Origin: Branchipolynoe longqiensis
Taxonomy: Eukaryota; Annelida; Polychaeta; Phyllodocida; Polynoidae
Direction: 5' to 3'
Assembly (NCBI GenBank): GCA_030323885.1
Contig: CM059203.1
Coordinates: forward strand, 1,488,001 to 1,552,000
DNA length: 64,000 bases
A model generated the notes under the pieces. It worked only from the letters and a program-made list of their open reading frames with translations, did no database searches and was not told the origin of the DNA. The translations under genes and the position numbers were made by a program. Positions 454-48,436 of the stretch are shown here, one piece after another; within the stretch, counting starts at the first letter, position 1; every line of letters begins with the position of its first letter.

Positions 454-663
454 CTTAAATCCGGAACTGGTACCCCTTCCACCAGACGTAAATCTGAGAA
501 ACATGTTTGTCCCAGATGAGCGTGTATTTGGTGGTAAGGTGGTGTCACAGTAGGTTCCCTGATGCAGTCCATGTATTGTAGCACCATTGACAATAAATAG
601 GACATCCACCCTACATAGATAGTCCCACTCAAGGTTGAATGCCAGGAAGACCAGTGAGATGAT
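454..663 (-). CDS. Coding exon 8: CUB2 second half
   Basis: 210-nt exon, phase 0-0, acceptor TTTCCAG, donor GTAGGA. It encodes IISLVFLAFNLEWDYLC, then VDVLFIVNGA, TYCD and FTSGGRGTSSGFK. It is parallel to exon 5 and supplies cysteines 3 and 4 of CUB2. Translation is open to the donor, so the coding sequence continues beyond the left window edge. Confidence 0.92.
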
Positions 664-3600: not shown

Positions 3601-6600
3601 GAGTGCGATTATTTGTTTGGTTTTTGTGTGTGGGATGAAGTTTTTTGCATTGTTCCAGAATGTGTTGGTACCATTTTTACATGTGGTATCTTGTTTTATT
3701 ATGTATTTTCTTTTAGCTTCTGTGACTAGTGTTAGTGAATTCCCTCTAGCCAATCAGTATACATTTGCTGAATAAACTTTTACAAAAAACATTTTTAATT
3801 CTTGTAATGCGACATGCATGCCACATATCCCCACATACCCCCACCTCCTGAGCGCTATGTACTATTTGAATGGTCCCTTATATAAATAAATGACATGGAT
3901 GTACTCACATTGTTAGCAGGAGCCTTTATCCTCCATTGACAGAGAGCCCTCTTGGGGTACTGATGAGGAAAGTTTGGCGATGTGATCTCTCCAGAAGTGG
4001 TCAATGTCTGCACATTCCCGGCACAAGCTGCAATTAGGTCTTGGTTGGTTGTGGAATTTTACATCCTGGCAACATCTCAAGTCATATCAGGACAGGTACC
4101 AACTTGTGAGAGTGCACACTCATGGCGACTTTATAGTGTTGTCCCACTGGGAAATCAAGATGCCTGCACTTTGACCTGATTGATGTCCCACTCAGTCACA
4201 TTATCCTGACACTGAGCTAGCCAGCCCTTGCCATATCCTATTAATGCCTAGCATCAGGCTAGTAAGCTATAAGTATCAATTTGATAAGTTATTCATTTGA
4301 CTCGACCAAGAATCGAACTCCCAATTTCCAATATGCGAGGACCGCGCTCTACTGATTCGGCCACTACACCTGATATTAGTTTTTTTTAGATAAATGGGTC
4401 ATTCTCTGAAACTGGGCCCTAAAGTCTGACATGGAAACCAAAAGTAAAAACCTTCCAAATAATAGCAGAAAACATATTAAATAATAGCAGAAAACATATT
4501 AAATAATAGCAGAAAACATATTAAATAATAGCAGAAAACATTCTAAATAATAACAGAAACCAGGCTCATATGAAGGTTTACAAGTTTTGCAGATGTCAGA
4601 CTTGAAAAAGAAGCTATTTCAGTTTTTGATTTTGATCTCCTACATGTTAATTAATATGTTAATATCACTTGTATAATATAGAAATCAAAGACATGCACAG
4701 AACATCATTTAAGCATACACAATAAAGTCAGACAAGACTTTATTGATAACATTTGAGCAAAAATGATTATGTCTTACAAGAAAATAGTTGACAAAAGTTG
4801 AAAAGAAATTTAGGTAAATGCATTGTGTTGATGTGTAAATTTTCACATTTTCACTTTAGCCCAAAGTCATAGAATCATACTTGTTATAGGTTTTATGGGA
4901 TAGATTAAATAAATGTAATATTTCTAGCACACCTAACACACAGAGGCAACATTACTTATTGGACTTGCTATCAATAAAAGAAAGAATATATGGTGCCTAG
5001 TTTTAACAAATGACCCAAATACAAAAGATATCCTAAGGTGACTATGCATTATGGTATTAAAGACATATAAAGGACTACCAGACCATAGCTACATGATGAT
5101 AAAGTACACTGACAAAGTTTTCGTGACTTGTGTGACTTTTCAATGCGAGTACCTTTGTCATGTTAATGTTTCAGTTCATTTGTGAATAATTAATTGAGCT
5201 AATATGAGTTAAATGAGCTAATTGAACTAATATGGGATACATGAGGACATGCTAGAACGAATGAATGCCCATTCAAGGAGTCTGAAGCAGAATTCCTGAT
5301 CCCTGAATATTGAGATTTACATCAGATTTAAGGTCAGTGTAGATCTGATTTATTTGAAATATTTAAGGAGAAAGTGGATATATAAATCATGGCCTCTTAA
5401 CTTTGCATCTTTGCTTTGGCTAGAAGACAAGTACATTGGTCACGTTGGCCGAGGCTAACATGGGTAATTTGCTCATGAAGCTATGTCTATTTCTGTCTTC
5501 CTTATGCTTGCCTGTTCCCCATCTCCTCACTTTCTCATGGCACCCCCTGCAGGACACTTCGCTTTCCCACCCACAACCCTCTAACTAAGGGGTGAGCACT
5601 GATTCATCTTCCTTCGCCTGTCTCCTGGTGCTCATCTCCAAATTCTGAGGTCTTGCCTCGTCCCTGCTCCTGGTCAGCAATTGATGAACATTTGGGTCTC
5701 TGCCACCCATTAGCCATGAATCTGCTCAGCCTCTGTGGTTACGATTACTTTTGTTAATAAATTCTTTAAAAAACACTTTTCTGCTCCTTCTTCTCTTAGC
5801 TGAGTGTAGTGAATTAGCACTGACAACATCTTATTCAGAGCAATAAAATCACTTGAACAAAAAAAAAAACTCCCATTCTGTAGACACTTACCCAAGTTTC
5901 CGGCGCCGCCGTTAATGCCGAAGGTGACTGATATCTGTAGGAAAGAAGGGAGTGAGACTTGCTCTGATTGGTTGGTTGGTGGACTTTTATGTCCTGGCAA
6001 CATCTAAGGTAATATCAGGATGGGTACGACTTGAGACAGTGTGCACCAGTGCGCCCTCATCACAACTTTATAGTGCTGCCCCACTGGGAAATCAGGCCAT
6101 CTGCACCATGTCCCGATTTCCCACTTAGTCGCATTGTCAATGTTCATATCAACATGGGTAATTTAACCTGTGAAACATGTAGACTGCTTTCTATGGATGA
6201 GACCATTGGCGCCATCTATATTTTAACCGAGAACTAATAATATCTACCGATTGAGCTGCCACCTGGTGTAATTTACTTATAACTAATCGATGACGTGGCA
6301 ACTTTACGATCACTTAGACTGGAGCACCTGGACTGGGAGGATGTGTCTTTAACCTTCAGATTTAAAAGGATTTACAAAGATGCCGGCGGCAAAGAACACA
6401 AGATCAAAAAGACAAGATGACCCTTCTCCAGATAGACAGGTGGGTGTGCCGAAGAAAAATAAATAAAAAACAACGTCAAAGTCGATGGCAAAATCGGCCA
6501 AGGCTACGCCAAACTGGCAGCCGCATGCGACACAAACAAAGGAAAGACGTGACTCTAATGGCGGAACTGCGCAGCAACAAAGCGACGTGGCTTTGCCACG

Positions 6601-9600
6601 TTCTTCTGAGGCCGGATTAACCGTTGCCCTGGCAACTCTTCACAGACAAATGGGGGATATTAAGGATGGGATTAACGCATGTATCGATCAACTGCAGCTT
6701 AACGCGGAACGGCGCAGATCAAGGTCGGTTACGCCTCGGAGGCATGAGCATGCAGCTACTACGCAGCGGGAAAAGTCTGGTGACGTCACGCTATGTGGAG
6801 GTGGCCATGACACTTTTCTGGATCGTTCTAGATGGCGGTCGACTGGCCCGAGGTGCCGTCGTTCATCGTCGAGTCAATCGACTGTACTGACATCGCTGGA
6901 AACTAGACGGCCACCCCGTCGAAGATCGGCAGAACGGGTGTTCAAAACTTATTCCTTCCTTGGCGACGAGCGCTGCACGAGACCTGATGGGACGGGACAG
7001 TTCGTCTCCGATGCCCTGTCGCCTGGAGCCGGCCGGGACGATGAACGGGAGGATGCGGTTAACAAACTCTTGGTCGCGGCTGGATCTGCACTCGGCAGGA
7101 AAAGAGGTAATAAGATACTTGCACCTCATATATATGTGATTAGGGGTTCAAAGAACGATAAGATTGGTATGGAGGAAGCGTCCTTTGAGGAGTACATGGC
7201 AGCGCTCTGTCGATTTGTAAGGATAGGGAGTTGCCGCATGGCTGGCAGCGTCACGTCTTTGAGCACATGCATCAGATAGCAATAATAGCGGCCAACTGGC
7301 ATTGGCACACTTGTCGTCAATGGTCGGAGACAGTCTTCACCATGATAGCTGACGGGAGGAGCGGCTCAACAAGGCAAAGGGCACACATGCGCACAAGAGT
7401 GATGGGATCGGTACGGCTGCATCGTCGGCTCCTGCCGCAGCTGGATCTAAGTCAGGAGAGTACGGTAGACCTGATTACAATAGGTAGGTGGATGGTAAGC
7501 CCTGCCAGCCGTGGAACTGGGGCAATGATTGCGGCTTTGCGATGTCGCACGGGCTTCAGCATGATCGTCGATGCCACTTGTGCGCGTGGTGTGCTAATAA
7601 GTTCAAGAAAGCAAACCCGCATCAGGAGAAGGCCTGCCAGAACAAGAGGCACTTCAATGAGAGAAACAACCAACAGAAGACTGAGAGTAAGGATTTTCAG
7701 TAAGTGGATGCGGGGACCCTGCTCACCCTGTCCATGCTGGTACTGTGAGTGTGGGACGTGTGCTAAATCAGGCTCAGGATTGTGCGATACCACTTGACCC
7801 AGATTGCAGTTGCTCTGAGATCTTATCTGGAGGCATGGCGGGTAATCTGGAAATAGCAGATAAAAATGTCGGAAAGGTAACCCTTGGACATGGCTTTACA
7901 CAGTCTGGATACGCTTTGCCGGTGGCCGACGGTCGTGGGGGTGTGGAGGTGCTACGGCCTGTGGGGCAGCCGCGGGACCAGTACGATCGAGTGGGGCACC
8001 AACACGTAGGTAAGGGGGTTGATGCTGGGAGAGATATTGTGACGATCAGTGCTGTTGATGATGTGTTAAATCCATGCTATGACGACAGGGAGCCTGATAG
8101 GCTGCTGGTGGAGGAACAGGTCGACACGGATGATGTCGAGTAAGTAATACAAAATATCCCTGAGTTACAGCGCCCCGCATACAACCCCCCCCACACACCT
8201 GCTACATACAGGCATACCTTGGATGGCATATGGCCTCACCCTGTGGACAATATCTGGAGTGGTGGTATGAGGTTTCTTGATGTTTACATGCAGGTTAGGG
8301 CGGGAGCTCTCCCAAATTACCTTGGCCCTCGTATGCCTATATCATCAGGCTTGAACATTACGGCATGGAGAGAACTCTTAGTTAACTATCATGATCTGCA
8401 GGTCGTCGACTTTCTGGAATATGGGTGGCCGGTCGATTACACAGCGGATCGACCGCCAGTTGCCTCGGTTGCTAACCCAGAGAGCGTGGCCCACATGACA
8501 GACTATATTAAAATTGAGTTATCGTACGGTGCTATGCTGGGACTGTTTGATGTGCCACCATTCCGGCCATGGACACAGGTGAGTCCTATGATGACACGAC
8601 CTAAGAGGGGTTCGGATAAACGTTGTGTGATTGTCGATATAAGCTACTCACCTGGAGCTAGTGTTAATGCTGGTATTAGGAAATCCCAGTACCAAGGCCA
8701 GCAGATGACCTACACCTTGCTGGGCATATCTGATCTGGCGGATGAAATCACACGTCTTGGCCAGGGAGCTCTCATCTGGTGCGTCGACTTGGCAAGGGCG
8801 TATCGACAGCTGCAGACATGCCCTTTGTCCGCTCCACTACTGGACATTACCATTGATAATAAGATCTATCTTGACTTGGCACCACCATTTGGCTGCAGAA
8901 CATCTTCTATGGCGGCTCCTCGCACTACCAATGCGGTAGTATATCTAATGCGGAGGAGTGGCCATCATGTCCTATGCTACCTCAACGACTTTGTCGGGGC
9001 GGAAAAAACCAAACATGAAGCTGAGGCTGCTTACACTGAGATATTCGACCTGACGCATCGATTGGGCCTTGAACTGGCGCCTGCTAAGTGTGTCTGTCCC
9101 ACTACTGAGCTCGAGAGGCTGGGATTTTCGGTTTCTACAATGGACATGACCATAACTATCCCACAAGATAGGCTGGATGAGGTGGTTGGAGAGTGTAGGG
9201 CATGGAAGACGAGGGTGCTGGCCTCGAGGAATGACCTGCAGCGGCTGGTTGGGCTCCTCCAGTACATCACAAGATGTGTGCATCCAGCAAGGAGGTTCAT
9301 GTCCAGAATTATGTCGGCTCTCAGGAACACACCATACAGGGGTAGGCACATTGTTCCCCCTGAATTAAGCCTTGACATGGGATGGTTCGCACGGTATGCC
9401 ACACACTCAAATGGCCTTGTGCTTCTGCCTGCTGCTGAGCGTGAGAGTTGGGTTATTGAGTGTGACTCATCTCTGCGCGCTGGGGGGGGGGGGTGCATTC
9501 GCCAACAGACTACTACTCCGAGGAGTACTCCCAACAGCTCCTTGAGGAGCGGCATATGATTGCACAGCCCGAGACTCTAAACCTGGTTGTTGCACTCAGG

Positions 9601-12600: not shown

Positions 12601-15600
12601 CAGAAAACCATGTCACTGTGGCAGCATTAAGGGCCGTTGATGTATGGAACTCCCAACATCTCCTGACCAGCCACTGCAGGGATAAATAGTTTTGCACCTG
12701 TCTGGACATGTTCTTGCCAGTGTGAAACCTATATTTGCTCCCCGAAAGAGTGCCGCTGGTAACTTGCAAAAGCCAGCAGCACTTCAACACTTTTGCCGGC
12801 AGCTTTCATGAAATGGACCGACTCATGGACATCATTCACACAGCAGAGAGCTAAATGGAGAGCGGCAGTCAAGTAATGAAAGTAGTCTTTGTCGCATCGC
12901 ATCGACAGCATGATGATGATGATGAATGCATTATGCAAGTGTAAAGACGCGTAAGGGAATTATTATTATTATTCCTATACTTCGTAAGACCCAATACTGT
13001 ACTGGTGGTGCGACCTGCGGCCTCCTCACCTCCACCGGATGTAGACCAGTGTCAGTCACACTAGAGGATTGATATATTATATATATAGGAAATTATGATG
13101 TCCTGCATTCTAAATTAAGGTTTGTATCATCAGATTGTTAAGGAGGTGGATATTCTTCTTGCTGCAGTAAATGGAAATCACGCAGATATCCTGTGAGTTT
13201 TGCGTGCATGTTCATAACTAACCCAAATACTGTGAGAGCAATTTGACATAATGGGAATAATATGGGAACAAATTAAAACCAATTAAATGGCATGTTGGCC
13301 TAGGCTTGATTAATTCATTTCAGCGCTTTGTTTCGAAACTTCTTCAAGTGGTGCCCTCTGTAGCAGAGTGGTTAGAGTATCTGACTTTTTTTCTAGATCA
13401 GACTCCTAACATAAAGCTTGATGGTTCAATTTCCCGTGCCATCACCTCTGTCAATTTGGATTTCCACTGCTGTGTATAACTTACAGCATCATCAAAGGCC
13501 AGTTGCTCTTATACAATGTCTATGTGGTGTTGGAGGTTAAAAATCCCTTGTTCGGTAACAGTGTATGCTCCGGCTTTCTATTGATCAAATGTATAATGGT
13601 GAAGAAAATACTATTCAGACCTAACCATGATAGGCAGTATAAATGTTCAATACCAATGACATATCTGTATATAAGACTCTTACCTTGAATCCACTAGCAC
13701 TTCTACGTCCGTCAGACGTAAACTTCAGTTCTATGTATCGTCCAGTTGACAGTGTTCTGCTGGGAATGCCGTAACCACACCAGGTCGATACTAAGGTTCC
13801 ATTATTGTAAATCTTGATGCTGTCAGATAGACATGATACTGAGCGTTCAATATCGAACCAGGTGAATGCGACTAAAACTTTCTGCAAGACAAAAATAAGA
13901 CAAAGTAGACAGTTAGACCTATTGATCTCCTGTCCTGAATAGCTCCGAAAAATCAGTTTGTTTCCAATGTACAAACACTAAATACTCAAGTTCAGTGATG
14001 AGTAACGAAGCTGCCTATGACTATGTAAGTTAGTTGTAAAAGGCCAGTGGTGGTGTTTGTATTTTATTTATGTTTTATTTTGGGGAGGGGGTAAGGGACG
14101 ATAGTGGTGTTTGTATGCCATGTCTCAATTTACACCGTTAATTTACAGATCTGTTGTTCTATATGAGTTATAACTATTATTGATGACATTTACCAAATCC
14201 AGCATAAATAGTATAATTGCCTTCCAGTAATGAATATGAACCATTGAATATGTCACACAACCATAGCATAGCTTATGTTTCTGGGATAATGAAGACAATA
14301 ATTCAACAGCTTTATCTGTATTCTGGAGTTATCTCCAACATTTGATGAAGTCAAATACAATTCTCTCTCTCTATGTATATATGGATATGTAATAGAGACA
14401 TCTGAGTTAGACCTACACATCATGGGCCATAATATATAGAACACATAATGCATTGGTTATGTTGGCGAGGTCAACATGGGTAATTTGGCCACGAGGCAAC
14501 GTGCTGGTAGTTTTCCTCGCTAACACATGTACGCACACTGGTCATTCTGGCCCTGCTCGCCAAACAAGCAACTTCGCGTTTCATTACAACCCGTGCACAG
14601 GGCGTGGTAGTCTACGGCCGGAGATGTGCGATATGGCTCCTGTCAAGAAACGCCGGGGGAGGCCCCCCACTACTGCTGCACTGCGGCGGACGCAGCCGGT
14701 GAGGCGTGCAAGAAATAACCATCAACCGCAGCTGGAGGCAAGGGAACCGGCTCGGGACGACGACCAGCAAAGAAATATAGTTCCTGACAACGCAGCAACA
14801 CCTGCAGCCAGGGGTGTGGCGCAACAGAGAGGAACGATTCGTCTATTGAGGCAGCAGAAGAATCGGATGGAAGCGGATTTTGCCAACAGGTTGGACGCAC
14901 TCGAACGGGTGGCAGCGGCGGCAGGTGCCCACGCCCCACCTCCCCTGCCTGTTTCGGCTGTCAGTACGCCGCGTCAACCGCTCCCGCAGCCGTTAGCGCA
15001 GTCATCGCCGAGGCCTGGTGTGTTGCATGCCCTGCCCATTGTGTCGCCAGCCCCCCTGCGCCTCACCCCATTGGTTACTCGGTCATATGCAGCTAGGCAG
15101 GTGCCGTTCATGCCGCCTCCGCCTTTGTCGTCCCCGGGCCAGCAACACGTGCCCGCCGCCGTGGTCACTCAGAGTGCATTCAACATGCCTGCGCATAGCC
15201 AGTTGCCGCAGGCACTGCCACGCCTTTCGCAGCAGCTCAACTACGCACAAGTGACGCCAGACGTACTGCTAGAAACCACACAAGCATTACAGAAGCCAAA
15301 CGGTATGGTGAACCTCCCTCATCATTTTCTTACGCAAGGCGATGCATGTAAGAAGATAGCTTTGGGGGAGGCCACGTGGGGGGAGTATTTCGCTGCCATG
15401 AGAAGGCTGGCGGAACAGCCCTCTTTTCCACAGCATGGGTCCCTGCATTATTGTAGCATGAAGAAGAGCTTGCAATTATGGCAATAACTTGGGATTGGCC
15501 AACTTGCCGGCATTGGTCAGAGAAAGTGTTTCAGATGGTGGTAGATGGGAGACTGAAGGAGGGGTGGCATGACATTTCGCCGATAAAAGGTCTGCAGAGG

Positions 15601-18600: not shown

Positions 18601-21600
18601 TGTATTAATAGTAATAATAATAATAAACCTCATACCGAAGATGTATACCCGTATATCCATATACTAGCTATATATATATGAAGTAAAATGCCAATTCACT
18701 AGATTTATCTCGCAAATCATATCCTTTAATGTTCTCTAATATCTAAATGTGCATATCTGACCATGGTTTGACAGATATATAACTTGTACTGTACTGTTCC
18801 ATATCTGACCATGGAGTGACAACAATGTTTTGACAGAAAGGTGGTGCACTCACCTGGCCAGGAGGCGCGACTAACTGCCAGTTGCACTCAGCATTATTTG
18901 GGTAGGCCCTCGGGAAGTTTGGTGATCTGATCTCTCCAGGACTGCTTACCGTCAGGTTGTAACCACTGCAAGCTACAACATGAGATAATGTAGCAAAATG
19001 ACTAAAAAGAAGTGTCATTGTCTGATGAATTCTAAATAAGTCAAATGCCTACCATTAACTGTACTGGCACTCTGCTGGCCTGACTGGTGGTGTGGGAGTG
19101 TTCTCAACTTTTAGAACAGATTGTTCTATAATAGTTAATAAGGCAAGCAATCTGCCCTGTGTGTGTAACCATGCAGAACTTGCACAGTACTAAAACTGCA
19201 TAGTTTGATGAAAGCATCAAACTTTCAAAACCAAAGAACTAGCCTAGATTTGATAGTACATGTCCAACTTGGATATTGATGTGTCGAGAGTAGGGCCTAC
19301 ATGTCCAACTTAGATATTGATGTGCATATTAAGCATTCGCTTCTGTGTAGAAGGGATGTTGCACCAATTTATTAGAATGTGTTGCTGCTGAAGCCTATGG
19401 TATCAGTATTTTGATGTTTTTGCCAACAATAATTATGCATGTTCTTCAAACTAAAGTAAAGCAGATTATAATGATCAACTTTATGCACTTATCTCAGAAA
19501 ATGCTAGAACCTAACAACCATTGCAGATAGGCTGTCGACATTAACTTTAGAAGAACAAGAAATGTCGTTAATGAAAGACATATCGGAGATGGAACTGAAG
19601 GAAAGGGTCTCAGCATTACAAGAACGACGAACAGTAATGATGCAGCGACGGCAAGAGCGACAGCGAGTCGAGGAGGTGGCAGAACGAGGGGCGGCAACCT
19701 GGAAGGAGGAATGGCCGACGGCAGAAAACGCCGGTGCAACGACGACACCGGCGGTGGGCGGCAAGGACGAACACTCAAGTTATGGAATGGCAAAGCCGAG
19801 ACAACGGTCGCAAACACGAAGGCGGCGATGAACACCATCAGACTCTAGAAGTAGAAGCACCAGCAGCACTAGAAATAAGTGGAGCCTGAGGAGATATGCA
19901 GTGTTGGGGAAAGAAGTGCGTAAGTTAAACTGCTACAAACTAATTACGGCTTCGATACGGTGTAGCAGGAAATCGCAAACCCTGTATATCGCAAACCCCC
20001 ACTTGTGATTTCCTAGGAAATCGCAAACCCCCATGCCATATATGGGCATGGGGGGTTTGCGATTTCCTAGGAAATCGCATATCCCCCCTGGAGATCGCAA
20101 ACCCCCCATTCGGCGGCGGCGGCGATTTGCTTAGGGGTAAAGGGAGGAGATATTCGTCGCCGGGAAAACAAACGAACTCAGAATAGTTCAGATGTGTGCC
20201 ACAGGGGTGGTACATGCTTAGTACTGAACTTTTCCACTTGGTGGTGTGCAGGAGAGTGACCTAGATTGTTGTGCCATTGGCTGGTTGAGTGGAGAGAAGG
20301 GAGGGTAATACTGAGGTATTTTCAATCTTCTTTAGAGTAGTGCAATGAGGAAGTATATTTGCATAATATAAAATATATGTTAGTACAATTACATTGCATA
20401 ATTCGATGAGAAACAGATATAGATGAAAAACGTTTTTTTGTTGATGAATGTAAAAAAATGGTTCTGCTGTGGATGGGGTTTGAACCCACACCACCAAACA
20501 ACTTCAGATTACAAGTCCAACACTCTAACCACTAGGCCATAGAGACAACACATAATTAGTAGTCTCACTTCAGGCTATTTGTGTATAGGACGTCACATAT
20601 AAAAGGTACGTACATACGTACGCACGCACGCACGTACGTACGCACGTACGCACGCACGCACGCACGTACGTACATACGTACGTATGTACATATACCTTTT
20701 ATATGTGACGTCCTATACACAAATAGCCTGAAGTGAGACTACTAATTATGTGTGGTCTCTGTGGCCTAGTGGTTAGAGTGTTGGACTTGTGATCTGAAGT
20801 TGTTTGTGATGTGTGTTCAAACCCCATCCACAGCAGAACCTTTTTTACATTCATCAACAACAAAATGTTTTTCATCTATATCTGTTTCTCATTGAATTAT
20901 GCAATGTAATTGTACTAACATATATTTTACATTACACAAATATATTTCCTGATTGAACTACTCTAAAGAAGATTGAAAATACCCCAGTTTTACTCTCCCT
21001 TATCTCCACTCACCCAGCCATTTTTAAAACAACAGCTGCCAGCTATTCCCAGCCTCAGAACTGACCCACTTCTGGTGGTGAAGTGGGTCCCTTACTCTCC
21101 CCACACATACTTGGTTCATTTAAACATAAAAACTAAACAAAGTTGTGCTTGGAGAGCATTTGTCGGAGTATGCGCAGTGTCCCAGCGAGCTATAGCTGGT
21201 CCATTTAAACTGCGATTTGTTTAGGGTTAAATTGGTCAAATTTCACTTATTTGGTTACCAATTTAACCATAAATTCGAAGCGTTATTAAGGCTACCGCCG
21301 CATTGGCGGCGATATTACTAGTTATATTTTCGAATCGACGAACGTAAAGTAAACAAATCGCCGCCGCCGCCAGTATGGAACGCGACGTCGATTTGTTTAT
21401 ATTACGTTCGGCGATTAATATCGCCGCCAATGCGGCGGTAGCCTTAATGTTAATAACGCTTCGAATTTAGGGTTAATTTAATGAAATTTCACGATTTGAG
21501 TATGTAATTCTGTTAAATATGGTCGCATTGAATAGATTTGGCCCGAATCGGTCCCTAACCTGCACGTTATCCCTGGCTACAAAACACAGGGGGGTTTGCG

Positions 21601-27600: not shown

Positions 27601-30600
27601 CAGGTGACCTTATATCCACATGAAAGTTGGATTTAAATGTACCGGAAGTGGCTTGGGGCAAGACATTCTGTTTGGATTAACTGATAATTTGGGTTAAACG
27701 ACTTTGGTGTAACCAACTTTTTTATATGATAAATGGTAGTATTTTGCGGGCCCCCCAAAAAGTGTTCGGATTAACCGATTGTTTGGTTTACCGAGCTTAG
27801 TTTAACGGGGTTGTACTGTATCCATATATAAGCATATATTTGGTGAGTGGTTGGCATTTTTATTTGATTTAATTCACTTTTGTTTGGTACTTTTTACTTA
27901 TATTCACATATTTGGGATGTGGTGCAGGGAGGCTCGGAACCGTGAAGCTGGGAGGCTATACATACCGTTTTAAATGCGATGAAGTGTTTATTAATATATG
28001 TATATGTGTGTATATGTATATATGTATATATGCTGTCACAACAATCAAATAAATCAAATAAAATAATATTTAAGGTAGGTTTTTCTTAATGTTGTACCAG
28101 CAATATATATTGGTATGCAAAAAATATATCTACATGATGCACAACAGTCCCCACAGGACCTCCCCCAGTGGCAAGTGGAAGTATATGAGTGGGCCACAGA
28201 CCAGCATATACCCCCATGGTTGGCTGGAGGTTCCTCTATTGTTTGGGATTTATGGCTATACCAACACAGTTCTATCATGGGCAGTTCTGTACTGTAGCCA
28301 TGTGTTGTAACTACTGAATTATTTCCTAATATTCACTGTTAATTTACTCAATCCGGTCCCAACTAAATGTCCTAGGAATATCCAGGAAATTAGATATAAT
28401 TGTTGGCTTTCTAGTGATGTATTCCAGCATGAAAATATCCCAAAACTCAGTAACCATATTTTTGAACCTGCTAACTAATCATATATCAAATTCGACCTTG
28501 GAAATTGAACTGGGGGTCGAATGAGGTATTTAATCACCATAGCCCAATCGAGGTAAGCTCTCCAACCTGTTTACTGAGTGATCTTGTGTCTCTATGGATT
28601 ATCCTCCTGCATAACCCTGCCTATGCGGCTGCTTGGCTTATGCTACTGCATAACCACGTCTGCTGCTGCTTGTTGCCCAGTGAGTTCCCCAAGGAATGAA
28701 CAACACCATCATCATTTGAGCTTCAATATTGAACTGGCTTTCAATGGTTCTACGCTCCCCTTATATACCCCTTTCTGTTTACAACTTTGCCTTTGGACTA
28801 CTGTGTTCTCAGCATGGTCATGCCCTCACCTCCACCTCATGCATCCTTCAATGTGTTTATGCGTACATGAGAAAACAACACAACCGAGTCGTCCTTCCCT
28901 GGATCCTATTTACCAGTGGCTATCCCCATGTATTTCCGACTCTTTGTAATCAGCACAATCAGTACAATCAGTACCCATATACCCACAGCATCCCCTCCTG
29001 TGCATCCACCCCGGCCCACACTCCGACCAACATCCATCCCACCTGTGCCCTTGGGACCTAGTGATTGAGTACTCCAGCCTGCTTCACGATGGGTCAACAG
29101 GCCTCCCTTCCACCACCGAGTTTCTAGCACGGAGTCTGCTAGTTACTTACTCATAACTATATACTGCAGATTTAATGCTCAAAATGAACCAAGATAAAGA
29201 CATGCTCATGTCTTTACAATAGGGTCTAATCTGTTCCTTAAAATGTTCACAGTATTAGATTATAAAGTGTTCCACTCATCCACCAGTATTCTAACTGTCG
29301 GTGTTGGTAATCACATTTATATCCCTACAAATGAAAGTATCAGACTTCTGTCAAATGACAGCAACAATGAGCTCAGATGTAATTTAAAAGTGGTTAAATT
29401 TGTATAAAATGACAGCAAAGGTTAACTCACAACACCTAGGTATGAGGCCTAGCAGTCCAGTTCTTCTTATAAACACTCAAATATATGGTTGGTTTATGTT
29501 GGCATAGAGGTGTCGGATATAGAGATTTCCCCCTATGCTAGACCTAACCAGGCTGAAGCTTAGGCCTACTAATACTAGTTCTATTTAATTGGATTGGAAC
29601 TACATGGCTAAAACCTTCACCTCTATCCAGAGTATCGGTGAATGACAACCCTGTCTAAATCTCAGCAATAACTGGCTTGGTAGGATTCAACTATAAATAA
29701 TATATGGAGATCCTTGTTCCAGGGCTCAATGTTTATCTGTATTGACGTACAGTGGAGGAACTTTGAAATTATTCAAATAAACAACCAGAAGAAACAAACA
29801 TGATGGTGGCCACAGAAAGCTGTCACTTCAACTTAAAGTATAATAATCTACATGATTTCATAAACCATTCATCCTAAATGTATCGGGATATGATAGATAT
29901 TATGCATCTGAAGAGTAGGTTGTATTTAACAGTTTAGATTAAAAGATCATGTGCTTCTTTCCATTATCCAGCCTTCCAACACCCTTTCTATGGGGTTGTT
30001 TAGTATCCATGTCACTAGTTGGGGTTTGTGGTAATCTTTTTGTTTTTTTGGATCGCGATATATTTGTTGGTATATATCCAACTTTATTGCATTGATATCC
30101 CAGATAGAACCTATTTATTCATGAATGTTGTAATGAATAAGCTAAGAAAAAGTGAATGTAGCTCCTTATTAGCTGAAGTCATTAAAAACAGATCTAGCAT
30201 TGAATGAGCTTCTACATTACCTGGATGTGAAGTCTGCCGCTTTTGTCTGCTCCTCTGTAAAATATATAAGCAAAATACATTAATTAAATTAAATTACTTC
30301 TGAATAGTGCATAGCAATTTAAATGTGTGGTGCCTGTATGGCACAACTAACAAGGATCACACATTTAAACTATGATCATGGCCAATGCTCATGAATGCAC
30401 TGGCTTAATGGCAACATCTAACATAGATCGGTTTTTATTCTAGTTGGTTGAGTTATCCAGTATATTTTACTAGTGTTCATAGATACCGCTAAATGCTATA
30501 TATGAATAACCTACCGTAAGACCTTGGAGGTATTCCACAAAGTCATCATCATTGCTTCTACCCTCATGTAATGGTCTATTGGCACTGTAAATACAAAAAC

Positions 30601-45600: not shown

Positions 45601-46701
45601 TGAGTGCAATAACACCCAGACATGCCAGTACCACTATGCCTATTTAGATCCTACTCAGGCACCACCAACCCATATACACCGATCAGTAGTAGAACATTTG
45701 CACTCCCCCCTGCCGAATATCAGAATATTTTACATGAATAATGAGAACTTATACCACTTCTGTTTCGTTGTGATTTATATAACACACTGCTAGCAAAACA
45801 ATTAAATACAACTGTAATGCACATTGGTGACATTGTGCTGTAACTCACAAAGATGGAGGCGAAGTCAATGGTAGACTTTCTATATTCTCACTTTTAATCT
45901 AACTTTTGAGATATTTGAAGTGTAAACACACAGCAATAATTTTGACATACCTGCCAAAACCCTGATACCATAGGCTTCTGCAGTAACAGGTTCTATTAAG
46001 TTGTATCAGTCTTCCCTTCTGCATGGTGACAAAAGTTCTTAAATGCAACACTATCTAAGTTATATATCATGTAGAATAAAATCTAGATATTTGTTTTTGT
46101 CTTGAATTTTTTTTGTTTCATCAGATTATGCAGCTTTAAGCTTGGGAAGAAAATTTGAGCTTTTTGTAATTCAATACATGACACCTGTTGAACCCCAGCA
46201 GGTATACACTTATATCCAACAATACTTGGCGTAGATCAAAACTGTACATTTTTGTGTTCAACATTTTATTATATTTCTATTCTCAATCCATTTTCCAATG
46301 GGAAACAAAATGTCTCTTCATCACCGGGACACTGGTCCTCTGGCCTTAAGAATTAAGGTGCACATGAACTGATGAGATGGTATGAACAATATAGACAAAG
46401 CCAGATAGCTATCAGGATTTAGAAATATTATGAGGGGAAACATTGCCTAGCTTTGGAAAATGTGGCATTTGGAATGACCTTCATGTGTACATCATTCAAT
46501 ATGAGTCTTGCATACAAATAAAGATCAACTTCATTTAATCATTTAGTCATGTTCAATGGATGTGAAGCTATTTGCAGCATTTTACTTGAGAACTCTTTCC
46601 AAACAACATAATTCAGAGGATTGAATATGTGAAATAACTTACAGAGATGCACTCACTAAATCCCATGTCAACAGAACGCACAGACAAAGTTGCCAATCCA
46701 T
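454..46701 (-). CDS. Secreted two-CUB protein gene, eight coding exons, 3' end outside window
   Basis: Gene model joined on the minus strand: 46701-46643, 30584-30515, 30254-30221, 18972-18854, 13881-13684, 5934-5892, 4027-3909, 663-454. All introns are GT-AG and all phases fit (2,0,1,0,0,1,0,0). The total is 852 nt with no internal stop. The predicted 284 residues give a hydrophobic signal peptide (about 1-18), an acidic propeptide containing SNDDDFVEYLQ, the basic site RSRQKR, CUB1 (ACSG..., four Cys), a short linker (ISVTFGINGGAGN) and CUB2 (ACAG..., four Cys). CUB domains are extracellular beta-sandwich binding modules, so the product should be secreted and furin-processed. The two CUB first-half exons are both 119 nt in the same phase, as expected for domain duplication. 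More domains should lie downstream, beyond position 454. PCPE, neuropilin and PDGF-C/D also begin with CUB domains, but nothing here selects one. Introns of 0.26-16 kb are packed with transposons. The start could also be an upstream in-frame ATG at 46708 or 46717. Confidence 0.87.
901..1702. repeat. CA-rich degenerate satellite array
   Basis: About 800 bp built from CACATA, GGCACA and CACATGCACATA units. It reads as Cys/Val-rich or Thr/His-rich open frames in several registers, which is a composition artefact. It abuts the 3' end of the minus-strand LINE and may have grown from that element's tail. Confidence 0.9.
1690..3755 (-). mobile_element. Decayed 5'-truncated LINE (Jockey/CR1-like RT)
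   Basis: Reading from 3755 down, broken frames give an RT leader (NTFWNNAKNF, KLNTHFSTIGDKLSEKF), then finger motifs (EQWKVVTVTPFFKTGD), RT motif A (FIDFSKAFDTVDH), motif B (VPQGSVLGPLLF), the catalytic ADDT near 2260, and the thumb/C-terminal region (ILPYFDYG). Many stops and frameshifts show it is dead. No endonuclease domain remains. The coding frame is interrupted at 2945-3431 by a polyA-tailed insertion. Confidence 0.85.
2945..3431 (+). mobile_element. PolyA-tailed retrocopy-like insertion in LINE
   Basis: Non-LINE sequence splits the RT gene. Its plus-strand end carries AATAAA about 10 nt before an A-run (AAAAAAAAAAAG then AAAAAAAG), the layout of a reverse-transcribed polyadenylated RNA. 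A 77-codon frame (3162-3395) is not recognisable. No clear target duplication was found. Confidence 0.55.
3909..4027 (-). CDS. Coding exon 7: CUB2 first half
   Basis: 119-nt exon, acceptor TTGCAG, donor GTGAGT. It encodes ACAGNVQTLTTSGEITSPNF followed by PHQYPKRALCQWRIKAPANN, which closely parallels exon 4 (SGEI.SPNFP..YP....C.W...AP). The tail of a SINE lies about 14 nt upstream of the acceptor. Confidence 0.92.
4041..4376 (-). mobile_element. tRNA-derived SINE (family S1)
   Basis: Minus-strand copy of the same SINE seen at 24715-25049: a tRNA-like head (here near 4376) with B-box-like GGTTCGA, a central region (CAGTCACATTATCCTGACAC on plus) and a tail of AACCAACC type. It inserted immediately upstream of the coding exon 7 acceptor. 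Confidence 0.85.
4452..4560. repeat. 22-bp tandem repeat
   Basis: About five head-to-tail copies of AAATAATAGCAGAAAACATA plus TT, the last ones diverged. A minisatellite in intron 6. Confidence 0.9.
4561..5437. other. Intron, no feature recognised
   Basis: AT-rich unique-looking sequence between the tandem repeat and the solo YR unit. No coding potential or repeat recognised. Confidence 0.6.
5438..5815 (+). mobile_element. Solo YR-retroelement terminal unit (A-B)
   Basis: Begins after ATT with the YR 5' motif (ACGTTGGC...TAACATGGGTAATTT). It ends with a 3' B-type module containing a TTAATAAATTC poly(A)-like signal and the terminal GTAGTGAATT, as in the full elements. The length is 378 bp with no coding region. 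It is the form expected after recombination between the A repeats of a split-direct-repeat element. Confidence 0.7.
5892..5934 (-). CDS. Coding exon 6: inter-CUB linker microexon
   Basis: 43-nt exon with a strong pyrimidine tract, CTACAG acceptor and GTAAGT donor. It encodes ISVTFGINGGAGNL plus one base (phase 1), which with CT of the next exon gives Ala. The frame fits both neighbours. A SINE ends about 30 nt upstream, and a solo YR terminal unit begins 77 nt downstream, so the exon survives in a narrow strip of non-repeat DNA. Confidence 0.82.
5963..6135 (-). mobile_element. SINE S1, left piece, split by YR-A
   Basis: Tail and central region of an S1 SINE (CCTGGCAACATCTAAGGTAA on plus). 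It stops at GCATT, exactly where YR-A starts, and resumes with ATCCTGATACTGAG after YR-A at 11414. Confidence 0.85.
6136..6364 (+). repeat. YR-A repeat A1
   Basis: 229-bp left terminal repeat, starting GTCAATGTTCATATCAACAT, about 95% identical to A2. It contains the family motif AACATGGGTAATT. Confidence 0.95.
6380..7703 (+). pseudogene. YR-A ORF1: gag-like protein with Cys/His finger, frame-broken
   Basis: The ATG at 6380 (MPAAKNTRSKRQ) is in frame with the long ORF but meets a TAA at 6464. The frame then runs to 7279, shifts to the 7231 frame (DWHTC-like block ending VFTMIADGR) and again to the 7488 frame, which carries PWNWGNDCGF...CHLCAWC..., a C/H-rich putative nucleic-acid-binding finger. 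The block LVAAGSALGRKRGNKILAPH is conserved with YR-C and YR-E gag. The product would coat element RNA. One stop plus two frame shifts make it a pseudogene. Confidence 0.8.
7745..8143 (+). pseudogene. YR-A acidic leader of the pol frame
   Basis: 132 codons in the same frame as the RT. It is rich in Asp/Glu toward the end (DVLNPCYDDREPD, VDTDDVE), with a matching acidic block in YR-E/G near 44150 (DTADDIDGAMTYDDRQ). Function unknown; likely the N-terminal part of the pol polyprotein. It ends at a TAA that overlaps a perfect donor-like GTAAGT at 8140. Confidence 0.5.
8219..9921 (+). pseudogene. YR-A reverse transcriptase and RNase H
   Basis: RT (8219-9559) shows motif A CVDLARAYRQL, the pre-catalytic FGCRTSS block and catalytic-site motif YLND instead of YLDD. 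RNase H follows: ECDSSL (first Asp), ETLNLVVAL (Glu), NTDNAT (Asp), DALSRR (last Asp). The two are out of frame at a G12 run (9482-9493), a likely slippage mutation. They would copy element RNA into DNA. The closest homologous segments in this window are YR-C and YR-E/G. Confidence 0.88.
9961..10916 (+). CDS. YR-A tyrosine recombinase, intact frame
   Basis: The open frame starts at a GT following a CCCCAG acceptor-like site and ends TAG inside B1. It is about 305+ residues from the first possible start at 9999. An N-terminal SAM-like core-binding region leads to the catalytic set: Arg in FTLLRQSN, HSMRRGG (His-x-x-Arg), LGHW and the nucleophile Tyr in YTYI. It would integrate a circular DNA intermediate without making target duplications. 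A potential 50-nt intron (9911-9960) joins it in frame to RNase H. It could be expressed as part of that fusion rather than alone. Confidence 0.88.
10911..11030 (+). repeat. YR-A repeat B1
   Basis: 120 bp, beginning at the recombinase stop codon and ending GTTGAATT. Contains a TTTAATAAATG poly(A)-like signal. Nearly identical to B2. Confidence 0.95.
11031..11259 (+). repeat. YR-A repeat A2
   Basis: 229-bp second copy of A1, starting directly after the ATT that ends B1. This junction mimics the circle junction expected of the integration intermediate. Confidence 0.95.
11294..11413 (+). repeat. YR-A repeat B2 (right terminus)
   Basis: 120-bp copy of B1 ending GTTGAATT. The SINE sequence resumes with ATCCTGAT. 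Confidence 0.95.
11414..11523 (-). mobile_element. SINE S1, right piece
   Basis: Continuation of the SINE interrupted by YR-A: central region and part of the tRNA-like head, fading out in TTTGACTCACCCTGG. Confidence 0.8.
11592..12205 (+). mobile_element. SINE S1-like copy interrupted by a GC-rich foldback
   Basis: Plus-strand tRNA-like head (TGGCCTAACCAGTAGAGC, then TTTGAATCGTGG), body and ACAAACAAA tail. A 305-bp foldback sits in the middle (11691-11995). Confidence 0.8.
11691..11995. mobile_element. GC-rich foldback MITE
   Basis: Ends GCGTTCAGGGTCCGTCTCGG and its reverse complement, with about 28-bp inverted arms and repeated GACGTCGCCGAGACG units. An extra internal terminus lies near 11934. 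No coding capacity; minus-strand open frames are compositional. Confidence 0.8.
12206..13353. other. Intron, no gene recognised
   Basis: Mixed unique-looking sequence with short GATGAT and ATT runs. No supported exon. Confidence 0.55.
13354..13455 (+). mobile_element. tRNA-like SINE fragment
   Basis: GTAGCAGAGTGGTTAGAG resembles a tRNA A box and GATGGTTCAATTTCC a B box, with a plausible anticodon arm between. The acceptor ends do not pair, so this is a SINE head rather than a tRNA gene. Confidence 0.5.
13684..13881 (-). CDS. Coding exon 5: CUB1 second half
   Basis: 198-nt exon, phase 0-0, acceptor TTGCAG after a pyrimidine tract, donor GTAAGA. It encodes KVLVAFTWFDIE, then a cysteine and LSDSIKIYNNG, then STWCG, then FTSDGRRSASGFK. 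The FDIE and C-x3-D elements, the third and fourth cysteines, and the terminal F-x-S-D-x(5)-GF motif are typical of CUB domains and retain likely calcium-binding acidic residues. NGT is a possible glycosylation site. Confidence 0.92.
13882..14454. other. Intron, no feature recognised
   Basis: AT-rich intron sequence between coding exon 5 and the YR-B start. No repeat or coding segment identified. Confidence 0.55.
14455..16370 (+). mobile_element. YR-B: PAT-like element 5' part with gag
   Basis: Starts after ATT with GGTTATGTTGGC...AACATGGGTAATTT, the family 5' motif, and is followed by an ORF1 region. No matching RT, recombinase or B repeat is seen; the right part is lost and followed by fragments of another lineage. 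Confidence 0.75.
14633..15487 (+). pseudogene. YR-B gag-like ORF1 (frame continues broken to ~16000)
   Basis: 285 codons from ATG: a basic N-terminus (MAPVKKRRGRPP, AT-hook-like), a Gln/Ala/Pro-rich middle, and the conserved block GEATWGEYFAAMRRL. After the TAA the homologous block DWPTCRHWSEKVFQMVVDGR appears one base out of frame. At 15790-15950 the finger WNRGKECGF...CAWCAYKF appears. Comparison with YR-A and YR-C gag supports the call. Confidence 0.75.
16375..17756 (+). pseudogene. YR-J: deleted D/F-type YR element (gag and RT fragments)
   Basis: A gag piece (KLSGYELIEANCYWML, then FVQHLAH) is followed by a 3'-end-like module with AAAATAAACACG (16570-16790). RT fragments follow: VVDIQNAYRSVSIHPIDRW, VNYLDDFAI, FLGIDID, HLVHCATVVRGGRSF, and RNase H VSDNTTV. 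Many stops and deletions are present, and the recombinase is absent. A perfect 53-bp palindrome interrupts the RT at 17029-17081. Confidence 0.75.
17029..17081. repeat. Perfect 53-bp palindrome
   Basis: Two 26-nt arms (CAAGCTAATAAAAAATACCA and six more bases) around a single A. It lies inside a decayed RT gene. Confidence 0.97.
17757..18322 (-). pseudogene. YR-K: minus-strand gag N-terminus of D/F type
   Basis: From 18322 down: TLSLDEQERAIAADIERLQR, a coiled-coil-prone basic/acidic segment homologous to YR-D gag (TLTLEEQEMSLMKDI). Then, in a second frame, KKLNAYKLSEAAVCW and DYKAFIQHI. The pieces are joined by a frame shift, and the element stops at the junction with YR-J in opposite orientation. 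Confidence 0.65.
18323..18853. other. Intron, no feature recognised
   Basis: AT-rich with short TAA and ATAT runs. No exon. Confidence 0.55.
18854..18972 (-). CDS. Coding exon 4: CUB1 first half
   Basis: 119-nt exon, acceptor TTGTAG, donor GTGAGT. It encodes ACSGYNLTVSSPGEIRSPNF and continues through PNNAECNWQLVAPPGQ. The pattern C-x(25)-C, the SPNFP(R)AYPNN motif and the CxW after it are hallmarks of the CUB N-terminal half. NLT is a potential N-glycosylation site. It is the same length and phase as exon 7. Confidence 0.92.
18973..19490. other. Intron, no feature recognised
   Basis: Unique-looking AT-rich sequence with a short internal repeat (ACATGTCCAACTT twice near 19258 and 19299). Confidence 0.55.
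19530..19960 (+). pseudogene. YR-D gag N-terminal part
   Basis: LSTLTLEEQEMSLMKDISEM leads an Arg/Glu-rich, likely coiled-coil stretch, followed after a frame shift by VRKLNCYKLITASIRC. It is homologous to YR-K. The 1.7-kb composite insertion interrupts it just after that block. Confidence 0.65.
20278..21020. repeat. Large inverted repeat: head-to-head tRNA-like SINE pair around an ACGT core
   Basis: Arms 20278-20607 and 20693-21020 are inverse copies. Each contains a tRNA-like box pair (TGGCCTAGTGGTTAGAG and GTTCAAACCCC in the right arm). The centre is an 85-bp alternating ACGT/ACGC tract. Confidence 0.9.
21271..21468. repeat. Second foldback (GC-rich arms)
   Basis: Arms of about 46-52 bp: AAATTCGAAGCG...GCCGCCAATGC versus the inverse ending GCTTCGAATTT. 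A second inner inverse pair is GAACGTAAAGTAAAC/GTTTATATTACGTTC. Confidence 0.85.
21928..22420. mobile_element. Foldback MITE M1, copy 1
   Basis: 493 bp bounded by AGCCGTGTTTACACGGG and the inverse CCCGTGTAAACAGGGCT, flanked by AAA on both sides (possible 3-bp TSD). The centre has the palindrome ACCTCGCGAGGTGGT. Subterminal CATATGAAGCG-type inverse motifs are repeated. Confidence 0.88.
22456..23179. mobile_element. DNA transposon with 76-bp TIRs and 9-bp TSD
   Basis: 724 bp. The TIRs begin GGGTGCATGTAAACGACAAC and match over about 76 bp. The target ACACAAAAC is duplicated exactly at 22447-22455 and 23180-23188. A 9-bp TSD suggests a Mutator-like non-autonomous element. No transposase. Excision would restore the YR-D gag frame. 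Confidence 0.9.
23323..23880 (+). other. YR-D gag-pol spacer
   Basis: Decayed coding-like sequence with short open frames between the finger and the RT. No domain recognised. Confidence 0.45.
23881..25831 (+). pseudogene. YR-D reverse transcriptase and RNase H, SINE-interrupted
   Basis: RT shows VDCSRPKGKSVNNF, motif A ATVDLKDAYRSINIHP, MGLSSSPFIFSKVSEF and the catalytic NYLDDFC. There is a TAA at 24640. The alignable frame continues ISLLRRLWFNIS up to the SINE, then resumes at 25063 (LELTLPEDKL, LLAHCAKVIRGGRTFSRR). RNase H has YTDAS, EMWAV, ITDSATV and TDALSRLD, with a frame shift near 25545. Confidence 0.88.
24715..25049 (+). mobile_element. Full-length SINE S1 with 13-bp TSD
   Basis: tRNA-like head GGGGTGGCCGAATGACTTAG (A box) and GGGTTCGAGTCC (B box), a body of about 230 bp, tail AACAAACAAACAA. 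TACAAGGATAAGA is duplicated at 24702-24714 and 25050-25062. It is the reference copy for the family in this window. The conserved body may be one of the known SINE central domains, which I cannot assign. Confidence 0.93.
25910..26830 (+). pseudogene. YR-D tyrosine recombinase
   Basis: Starts EIDRLAAEQREF directly after CTCTCTTTACAG. It contains the Arg box FRGLLRKSN, HSLRRGGCTYL, RGDW and Tyr in FQYLKTP (Tyr position shifted to QY). In-frame stops at 26484 and about 26630 kill it. Confidence 0.82.
27262..27395. repeat. GTCGGGTAAA minisatellite, locus 1
   Basis: Roughly twelve degenerate 10-11-bp units of the GTCAGGTAAA/GTCGGGTAAA type. The same unit occurs at 61065-61192. Confidence 0.9.
27485..27818. 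mobile_element. Tc1/mariner- or pogo-type MITE
   Basis: About 65-bp imperfect terminal inverted repeats (CAGCATAACCCTGTTAAACC versus CAGTACAACCCCGTTAAACT on the other strand), with TA beside each end. No coding capacity. Confidence 0.78.
28045..28569 (+). repeat. Interspersed repeat R1, copy 1
   Basis: AT-rich sequence with landmark CCACAGGACCTCCCCCAGTG and end GGTAAGCTCTCCAACCTG. Other copies: 53521-53597 plus 57812-58334, and 60275-60866 (inverse). Class unknown. Confidence 0.85.
28570..30220. other. Intron, no feature recognised
   Basis: Mostly AT-rich unique-looking sequence. Short open frames have no recognisable similarity. Confidence 0.55.
30221..30254 (-). CDS. Coding exon 3: furin-site microexon
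   Basis: 34-nt exon with acceptor TTTTACAG and donor GTAATG. It encodes RSRQKRQTSHP and then one base (phase 1), which joins CT of the next exon to make Ala before the first CUB cysteine. RQKR|Q matches the R-X-K/R-R proprotein convertase consensus, so cleavage would free the CUB region from the propeptide. Confidence 0.8.
30515..30584 (-). CDS. Coding exon 2: acidic propeptide
   Basis: 70-nt exon with acceptor TTTACAG and donor GTAGGT. Its first base completes the Leu codon begun in exon 1. It encodes ANRPLHEGRSNDDDFVEYLQ and GLT, a hydrophilic acidic stretch consistent with a propeptide. It ends in phase 0 and lies only 260 bp from the next exon. Confidence 0.8.
30925..31080 (+). mobile_element. 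Second tRNA-like SINE family (S2) copy
   Basis: GTAGATGGTAGAGTGTTCAC (A-box-like) and GGGATCAATCTCCCG (B-box-like), ending in CCAACCAACCAACCAAC. Adjacent to an S1 copy. Confidence 0.6.
31112..31399 (-). mobile_element. SINE S1 with 12-bp TSD and internal deletion
   Basis: Inverse S1 copy lacking part of the body. CATTGTTAGGAT is duplicated at 31100-31111 and 31400-31411. Confidence 0.9.
31412..31855. other. Intron, unclassified
   Basis: No exon. A GGTGCGCCTTGCGGCCTGC stretch resembles one near 13008 (GGTGCGACCTGCGGCCT), hinting at an old dispersed repeat. Confidence 0.4.
31856..34602 (+). mobile_element. LINE with RT and RNase H (I-group-like), rearranged 5' end
   Basis: RT region from about 32000: KSPWPDNITNEML, AAFIDL-stop-KAFDKVWKDG (TAG at 32717), VPHGGVLSPTLF, catalytic YADDLVLW. 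An RNase H domain follows: YTDGSATD, LTDSRSV, IPSHCGIQGNEEADKRAK, then the C-terminal LRTGHNRLSNHL and CPCGEEDQTAEHIL motifs. Stops at 32581-32583 and 32717 and a shift near 34000 break it. Positions 31856-31977 are a misplaced second copy of the RNase H segment 34158-34279. No endonuclease remains. Confidence 0.88.
34650..36300 (+). mobile_element. Second decayed LINE (RT fragment, unassigned clade)
   Basis: EKAINDLKSGKAPGSDQ, IQSGFISGRGTCEGIF, ASFIDYEKAFDRVNHEM and, after the decayed catalytic region, YGAETWTISKKMYKRL, FGHIIRQ and GSRGRPRTSW. The 3' end is a GATT repeat (TGATTGATTGATTG). Multiple stops. Confidence 0.82.
36301..36715. other. Intron, no feature recognised
   Basis: AT-rich. 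A short hairpin (TAGGTTGC...GCAACCTA near 36630) is the only structure seen. Confidence 0.5.
37108..38200 (+). pseudogene. YR-E gag-like ORF1, frame-broken
   Basis: The ATG frame begins MPKCKTMLQQTTPPVHARGR (basic, RGRPRSRS). Later frames give HTFVIRS-like and GESTFMEYLCALF blocks, then DWECESCIMWSEPVFLIIDD, equivalent to the YR-A and YR-C gag core, and a degenerate finger CPCHHWNWGGDAW. Several frame shifts. Confidence 0.68.
38250..38560. other. TACG/CGTA-rich segment
   Basis: Dense in TACG, CGTA and GTCG words (for example TACGTCGGCGTGCGTCG), unlike its AT-rich, CpG-poor surroundings. No coding or clear inverted structure. Confidence 0.5.
38630..39193. mobile_element. Foldback MITE M1, copy 3 (diverged)
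   Basis: Ends AGCCGTGTTCACACGGGC and GCCCGTGTGAACACGGCT, with the central palindrome ACCACCTCGTTAGGTGGT and subterminal CATATGAATCGATT motifs. The flanking TSD is unclear. Confidence 0.88.
39284..39625 (+). pseudogene. YR-F gag core and finger
   Basis: YYDLCIRKLAVTHGFEAFSS is homologous to YR-D gag (IRKLAEVEGFAAFG). MACYAWNSEQGCSRKEEECG, a stop, then CGGKGHKRVTCKE form the finger. Confidence 0.72.
40011..40563. mobile_element. Foldback MITE M1, copy 2
   Basis: 553 bp with the same ends as copy 1 and AAA on both sides. Contains an extra CCCGGGA-rich inverse pair and the central palindrome ACCACCTCCCGAGGTGGT. Inserted in YR-F. Confidence 0.9.
40736..42470 (+). pseudogene. YR-F reverse transcriptase and RNase H
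   Basis: One frame from 40736 to 42136 with a single TAG at 41399, inside the motif A region (DIDIKDAIRAF). MGLSLSPFIISCLSDF, catalytic NYLDDFC, LGININSDTLELTLPDD and HLAHCAKVIRGGRMFSRR follow. RNase H shifts frame near 42100: RDASNWG, FKEMRAV, ITDSVVV, CDALS. Confidence 0.88.
42568..43542 (+). pseudogene. YR-F tyrosine recombinase
   Basis: Starts ELEVLRAEQRGY after GTCGTTCCAG. Arg box FRALLRKSR, HSLRRGGCTFLAMSG, VRGD and Tyr in VYAYLKTP all remain. Stops near 42650 and at 43075 and a small shift make it non-functional. Confidence 0.85.
43559..43657 (+). repeat. YR-F repeat B1
   Basis: 99 bp, TGTTTATTGCTTGGCCATAG to GCCAACT. Contains CTGAAATAAAGG (poly(A)-like). Over 90% identical to B2. 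Confidence 0.93.
43902..44000 (+). repeat. YR-F repeat B2 (right terminus)
   Basis: 99-bp copy of B1. A2 (43658-43901) lies between the two. Confidence 0.93.
44105..45560 (+). pseudogene. YR-G leader and reverse transcriptase
   Basis: Acidic leader (DTADDIDGAMTYDDRQ), then RASGLPNYLAARIPRP, VIIDLSYPRVASVNAGIRKG, catalytic-site CYLNDFVQVA (again YLND) and DFQHLIGRLQRIAHCVGQAR in shifting frames. Truncated near 45560 before RNase H is complete. Confidence 0.82.
45425..45735. repeat. Dispersed repeat R2, copy 1
   Basis: Shares CAGCATTCCT, CTCC(C/T)TGGCCA, GAGTGTGGTGA and ACATTTGCA(C/T)TCCCC landmarks with 51375-51665. Class unknown; overlaps the end of YR-G. Confidence 0.45.
45740..46642. other. 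Intron, no feature recognised
   Basis: AT-rich, unique-looking sequence just downstream of coding exon 1. Confidence 0.55.
46643..46701 (-). CDS. Coding exon 1: signal peptide
   Basis: Starts with ATG directly after a TTTCAG acceptor-like site (46703-46702) and ends at a consensus donor GTAAGT. It encodes MDWQLCLCVLLTWDLVSAS plus two bases (phase 2). The residues form a classic signal peptide with a Leu/Cys/Val core and a small-residue cleavage region (VSA|S). In-frame upstream ATGs exist (MHVMFQ precedes), so this could be a longer first exon rather than a spliced acceptor. No 5' UTR exon or promoter is recognised upstream. Confidence 0.8.
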
Positions 46702-48366: not shown

Positions 48367-48436
48367 TGGTGTAGTAATGTCAATAATTAGAACAATTCCC
48401 TTCTGTATTTGTATACCCGCATGATGCGTTATGCAT

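Follow-up and report, generated by a model that had tools for sequence, protein, structure and literature searches.

An eight-exon minus-strand gene in Branchipolynoe longqiensis as the probable 5' half of a gene of the multi-CUB serine-protease type, with exons more diverged than introns

Here, we describe an eight-exon gene on the minus strand of a 64,000-nucleotide stretch of the Branchipolynoe longqiensis genome (the window; C18:1488001-1552000 of the assembly searched, which comprises 1.85 Gb in 1914 contigs). We consider it probable, at roughly three in four, that what the window contains is the 5' half of a gene of the multi-CUB serine-protease type, and that this gene belongs to a large family. 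The family is best read as secreted, furin-processed and of the multi-CUB serine-protease type, and the window copy itself would also end in a protease. A gene that is invisible to ORF scanning could in this way be read from the raw sequence and was then confirmed by paralogues. Compared with its paralogue on C17, the exons of the gene have diverged more than its introns, a pattern that strongly suggests adaptive conflict, for instance with prey, pathogen or mate. The family would then be a rapidly diversifying one of extracellular, protease-type proteins in a lineage whose secreted recognition molecules are poorly mapped.

All eight exons of the first-pass annotation were recovered over the same minus-strand span with the same phases (Table 1); every exon has AG/GT borders, and the joined 852 nt form the 284 open codons that had been claimed. 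The two first-half CUB exons, E4 and E7, indeed match in length, and both CUB domains carry four cysteines in the joined product and its alignment. E1 reads open and has the donor GTAAGT.

Table 1. Exons of the gene in the window (position 1 is the first letter of the window; phases are given from exon start to exon end)
Exon	Position	Strand	Length (nt)	Phase	Content
E1	46643..46701	-	59	end 2	start codon and putative signal peptide MDWQLCLCVLLTWDLVSAS
E2	30515..30584	-	70	2 to 0	propeptide exon ANRPLHEGRSNDDDFVEYLQGLT
E3	30221..30254	-	34	0 to 1	furin-type site RSRQKR
E4	18854..18972	-	119	1 to 0	first half of CUB1 (Pfam CUB over the joined product)
E5	13684..13881	-	198	0 to 0	second half of CUB1 (CUB match and alignment)
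E6	5892..5934	-	43	0 to 1	14 residues, closes CUB1, and linker ISVTFGINGGAGNL
E7	3909..4027	-	119	1 to 0	first half of CUB2; weak acceptor
E8	454..663	-	210	0 to 0	second half of CUB2

The product runs from a hydrophobic start through a short acidic propeptide and RSRQKR to two CUB domains. Pfam returned only CUB families for it, and PF00431 matched in two stretches with an E value of 2.6e-46 and 156.9 bits (curated cut-off 21.4). The residues E, D and D mark calcium-binding CUBs; in the alignment, the E5 half of CUB1 has all three, and in the E8 half of CUB2 the third acidic calcium residue is Gly. The propeptide, the RQKR site and the two CUB domains of the first-pass annotation are therefore supported, the propeptide and RQKR exons also being conserved in the C17 paralogue. 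Its signal peptide fared less well: the hydrophobic start in E1 fits secretion but lies in the weakest of the eight exons. RSRQKR, which C17 conserves, is a furin-type motif at which cutting is predicted. We suggest that the signal peptide would direct the chain into the secretory pathway, and that furin would then cut after RSRQKR and so release the CUB array immediately ahead of CUB1. The product, which is probably secreted, would be a zymogen or a binding protein that uses its CUB array for recognition; the CUBs may bind targets or partners, and the protease domain, where present, would be a trypsin-type enzyme.

Splice sites were ranked with a simple score of our own against the 4026 GT and 3604 AG dinucleotides of the minus strand. 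The donors rank in the best 0.05-5.1% of GT; among the AG, E2-E6 and E8 have acceptors within the best 0.2-5.1% (E2 splice sites, best 1.5%; E3 splice sites, best 1.4%), but the acceptor of E7 reaches only the best 33.5%, so that the consensus splice sites noted at first pass hold as AG/GT borders throughout and are weak at this one acceptor. A copy of a SINE-type repeat ends 12 nt upstream of E7; we rejected it as the cause of the weak acceptor because the corresponding acceptors on C1372 share a similar context. Among candidates passing the threshold, E2 ranks third of the 14 in its interval, and E6 has the top score among three. An alternative E6 (12366-12321, 46 nt), which keeps the frame and reads NFTRLLRPTMSHLVW, was rejected for its lower score and because the CUB is not continued by it. 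For the first exon there are 33 phase-compatible candidates, counting nested ATGs, of which E1 is one; 14 of the 33 are hydrophobic, and the plus strand over this stretch, taken as a control, yields 24 such candidates with two hydrophobic ones. An alternative first exon at 37976-37909 with a strong hydrophobic run was rejected because its C17 counterpart breaks the run. Splice sites alone thus leave some exons unfixed; for most exons it is the paralogues that remove the doubt. At the level of sequence, E2, E3, E4, E7 and E8 are backed in this way; for E5 and E6 the case is made by their fit to the CUB, their splice scores and their phase.

Two loci provide these counterparts. First, C17 holds counterparts of E2, E3, E4 and E8 in order within a 70-kb N-free stretch: that of E2 lies at 42894836 (77% identical, with a 1146-nt flanking block that is 93% identical), that of E3 at 42895165, where it reads RSRQKRQTSTP, and that of E4 at 42899160 (69% identical). 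The intron sequence around the shared exons also aligns with C17, and the collinear segments, broken by repeats, extend to window position 44382. Second, on contig C1372 an E7-like exon (69% and 65% identical) and an E8-like exon alternate twice, giving the exon order E7-E8-E7-E8-CUB3a-CUB3b-CUB4a. E8 counterparts are 53% identical in C17 and in both C1372 copies. No counterpart of E1, E5 or E6 was seen in the paralogue sequence read, and E5 had no match in C17 by blastn; for E1 this amounts to no verdict because its expected place (window 46701) would fall near an N gap at C17:42880494. The first-pass annotation had held that the lack of an orthologue with the same exon order would refute the gene, and the same-genome paralogues answer this point in part.

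The gene extends further than its original description as a CUB-CUB gene, which proved too small: to the left of the window it continues into CUB3 and CUB4. CUB1 is encoded by a 119-nt half, a half of about 200 nt and a small exon, phase 0 to 1, that closes it, and a further small exon was therefore expected after E8. At the predicted place, the best of 12 candidates is a 34-nt linker exon (C18:1484287-1484254; IRYSFQPVNTT). Such 34-nt IRYSF exons are also present in C17 and behind each of the two C1372 repeats, where each of the three is the sole candidate. In three genes an exon of this kind comes after an E8-like exon, and E6 has the same role and phases. The linker is followed on the same strand by CUB3a, a fused CUB3b-CUB4a exon and CUB4b, all open, and the joined CUB3-4 piece matches PF00431 with an E value of 1.5e-47. 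The leftward search for remaining exons that the first-pass annotation had proposed thus recovered the linker, CUB3 and CUB4 and then reached an assembly gap: the gene's contig ends at 496 N (C18:1479936-1480431), 1.1 kb after CUB4b; a further gap lies at C18:1622914-1623412.

The assignment to a protease-type family comes from C17. There, the E8-like exon is followed by a 34-nt linker, CUB3a, CUB3b-4a and CUB4b, by a second set of CUB3a, CUB3b-4a and CUB4b, and by a third CUB3a and CUB3b-4a, a CUB5b exon and a closing exon at 42927746. Protease exons come next, with the catalytic His at 42928619 (IIGG, TAAHC), Asp at 42933838 (DIALL) and Ser at 42935836 (GDSGGP), and then a stop; joined, these pieces match the whole Trypsin profile PF00089 with an E value of 2.2e-60. 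An Asp lies six residues before the catalytic Ser, which we take to suggest trypsin-like specificity. The survey of CUB domains across the assembly scored 150 of 567 first-look candidates, and all 150 lie above the cut-off, so that there are at least 150 CUB candidates, many of them on C14 and unrelated CUB genes included. Nineteen of the 150 share the signature of the C17 E8-like exon (profile positions 27-30 to 108, 84-86 aa open, one TAA); the 19 include that C17 exon itself, which is the one read in detail. An unusual CUB-protease family is not strange in itself, because trypsin architectures are described as little conserved across animals and as subject to many lineage expansions (PMC6767649). 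A literature search gave, among the matches listed, no paper describing such an architecture in molluscs.

A second block on C18 bears on how the window copy ends. An inverted copy of the CUB3b-CUB4b block lies at C18:1627363-1630148, is 96.3% identical over 2.79 kb and is followed by CUB5 and the His exon of a trypsin; this first protease exon reads K-IVGG and matches Pfam Trypsin with an E value of 1.4e-13, and the activation site in C17, N-IIGG, is without the basic residue found here. Because the similarity starts at the end of a repeat and stops at the end of the window gene's contig, the inverted block may be the gene's own misplaced 3' half, a haplotype copy or a duplicate. We also considered a CUB fragment carried by a transposon and rejected it: the block's 5' edge coincides with the repeat end, which makes insertion of the repeat in the same intron the simpler account. 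On its strand as read, including 42 kb beyond the gap, the window copy showed no trypsin exon, and this would fit a protease-less, four-CUB family member that would bind, but not cut, the same targets or partners. We regard this as rather unlikely, given that the gene's contig simply stops at an assembly gap and that the inverted block, with its CUB5 and His exons, could be the missing 3' half or a haplotype copy. The preferred reading remains a gene of the serine-protease type of which the window holds the 5' half.

The window gene also has one CUB more than C17 in its N-terminal part. In C17, E4 is followed by the E8-like exon, no counterparts of E5-E7 being seen between them, and a single CUB takes the place of CUB1 and CUB2. 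E5, E6 and E7 together comprise 360 nt, or 120 codons, with phase 0 on both sides, which is exactly one CUB. This cassette would have been gained in the window gene or lost in C17, and with phase 0 on both sides it could be skipped with the frame intact.

Several lines of evidence indicate that the exons of the window gene and C17 have diverged faster than the introns around them. First, the introns differ at 322 of 5218 sites (6.2%; 93.8% identical; the total covers six of the 11 C17 blocks, one per place), whereas the exons are 77-94% identical: E8 77%, the first CUB3b-4a part 81%, E4 85%, E2 86% and CUB4b 86-87%, with CUB3a (87-93%), the second CUB3b-4a part (92-93%) and E3 (94%) closer to the introns. 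Second, seven pooled pieces give a dN of 0.201 and a dS of 0.090, that is, 157.1 nonsynonymous changes at 892.8 sites versus 21.9 synonymous changes at 259.2 sites (two-sided p 2.8e-4; one-sided Fisher p 1.4e-4); the nonsynonymous changes also exceed those of the introns (p 5.5e-26). The pool holds one C17 copy per repeated exon and excludes E1, E5, E6, E7 and the 34-nt linker, which lack a C17 counterpart or are too short. The excess persists when the test is limited to the four window exons (p 1.9e-3) and when E8 is removed (p 0.013). E8 itself has a dN of 0.36 and a dS of 0.062, the latter at intron level; E3 has no synonymous changes, and E2 alone is reversed (dN 0.141, dS 0.242), with few sites. 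Third, among 39 pairwise comparisons (two of 41, those with the second C1372 copy of E7, being excluded as out of frame), dN exceeds dS in 15 of the 15 that set the window gene or the inverted copy against C17 copies, which are not independent of one another; in 13 of these 15, nonsynonymous changes exceed the flanks at p<0.05, the exceptions being two CUB3a pairs. The same direction is seen in all seven comparisons among C17's own repeats, which have very few changes, in one of two with the inverted copy and in none (of one) between the C1372 E8 repeats. Against C1372, dN exceeds dS in only one of 14 valid comparisons, and dS is mostly 0.24-0.49; the excess therefore belongs to the more recent splits. 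Within tests that are pairwise and treat sites as independent, the contrast with C17 points to diversification of an adaptive kind in the recent splits, although the adaptive cause itself is one that we infer.

Two other accounts of these data were weighed. The window copy might be decaying, with exons still open through a young duplication and a lost CUB3a acceptor as the first break. The acceptor of CUB3a is indeed AT in the window gene and AG in C17 and C1372 (an AG 6 nt past it keeps the frame), and transposons lie within several introns; yet the eight exons and CUB3-4 are open, the other splice sites are kept, and relaxed constraint predicts a dN/dS near 1 rather than the 2.2 obtained (raw ratio for E8, 4.8), all of which makes decay improbable. 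Exon-limited gene conversion from diverged paralogues in place of selection would have many CUB copies in the genome to draw on and has a parallel in the exon-restricted segment exchange described for snake toxins (PMC2711939), but is the least probable account, since imported exons should raise dS as well and the dS of E8 stays at intron level while its dN does not. Returning to adaptive diversification, we propose, tentatively and with more doubt than assent, that this is a large animal family of secreted proteases whose CUB array serves as a rapidly changing surface for recognition: positive selection would diversify the CUB exons, which are also added and repeated, while the intron frame is conserved, and the E5-E6-E7 cassette may be kept or skipped. 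If true, many target specificities would arise from one enzyme plan, as in invertebrate defence or gamete recognition.

The window contains further features. A DIRS-like element lies in intron 5 (8144-10913, plus strand), with a reverse transcriptase at 8144-9556 and a tyrosine-recombinase-type ORF at 9915-10913 that scores just below the Pfam cut-off. A LINE-type reverse transcriptase lies in intron 1 (32720-34015, plus strand); RNase H is found in many of its relatives, and among the best 120 of 439 matches the named relatives are mostly molluscan (Littorina, Batillaria, Ostrea, Elysia, Gigantopelta, Bradybaena, Dreissena and Ruditapes), the matches listed also including one record filed under a bivalve gill symbiont. 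The short interspersed repeat family occurs at 4039-4318, 5967-6118, 24717-25057, 31102-31331 and 48026-48390. Positions 902-1696 form a 0.8-kb degenerate tandem array of the CACATG type with long frames in several readings, and 50888-51373 on the minus strand is a 162-aa open frame rich in charged residues, with no Pfam match. Rfam and tRNA scans of the 64-kb window were empty.

Protein searches returned no close relative of the product; they gave two bird proteins (candidates of about 156-497 aa) and one protein each from Branchiostoma and Patiria (34% and 27%). The PDB matches comprise 42 distinct sequences, with cubilin, PCPE-1 and neuropilins as the best relatives. Cubilin is the best match (E 3.3e-53) and likewise has many CUBs. 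In cubilin, an EGF array lies between the furin site and the CUBs; in the exons found here there is none, E3 joining E4 directly in phase as in C17, and the paralogue ends in trypsin. PCPE-1, the second-best match (E 7e-33), shares two tandem CUBs. PCPE has an NTR domain after its CUBs, whereas CUB3-CUB4 exons follow CUB2 here. Unlike Tolloid and BMP1, the gene has no astacin domain between propeptide and CUBs, E3 joining E4 directly in the exons found. MASP, C1r and C1s resemble the family in their N-terminal CUBs and C-terminal S1A protease. The MASP order has an EGF between CUB1 and CUB2 as well as CCP modules; here only the 14 residues of E6 lie between CUB1 and CUB2, and no CCP modules were seen. 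The CUB-CUB start recalls NETO, and so does a prodomain before CUB1, which in Drosophila Neto is cut by Furin1 and can gate activity; vertebrate and worm Neto are without the long prodomain, and Neto carries an LDLa motif and a membrane span (PMC4344203), in contrast to the CUB3-CUB4 that follow CUB2 here, and the match is weaker (NETO2, E 2.6e-16). Ovochymases combine trypsin and tandem CUBs, but in OVCH2 the CUBs are at the C-terminus (PMC10850435), whereas here the CUBs come directly after the propeptide and the C17 protease is C-terminal. For the pattern of divergence, the nearest comparison is with snake venom genes, which concern other animals and domains and imply no venom-gene status here. 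Duplicated, secreted venom genes with KA/KS above 1 are described in PMC6062510, and venom genes with introns alike and differences in exons in PMC2711939; because these genes show it, exon-restricted divergence of the kind seen between the window gene and C17 can mean adaptive conflict.
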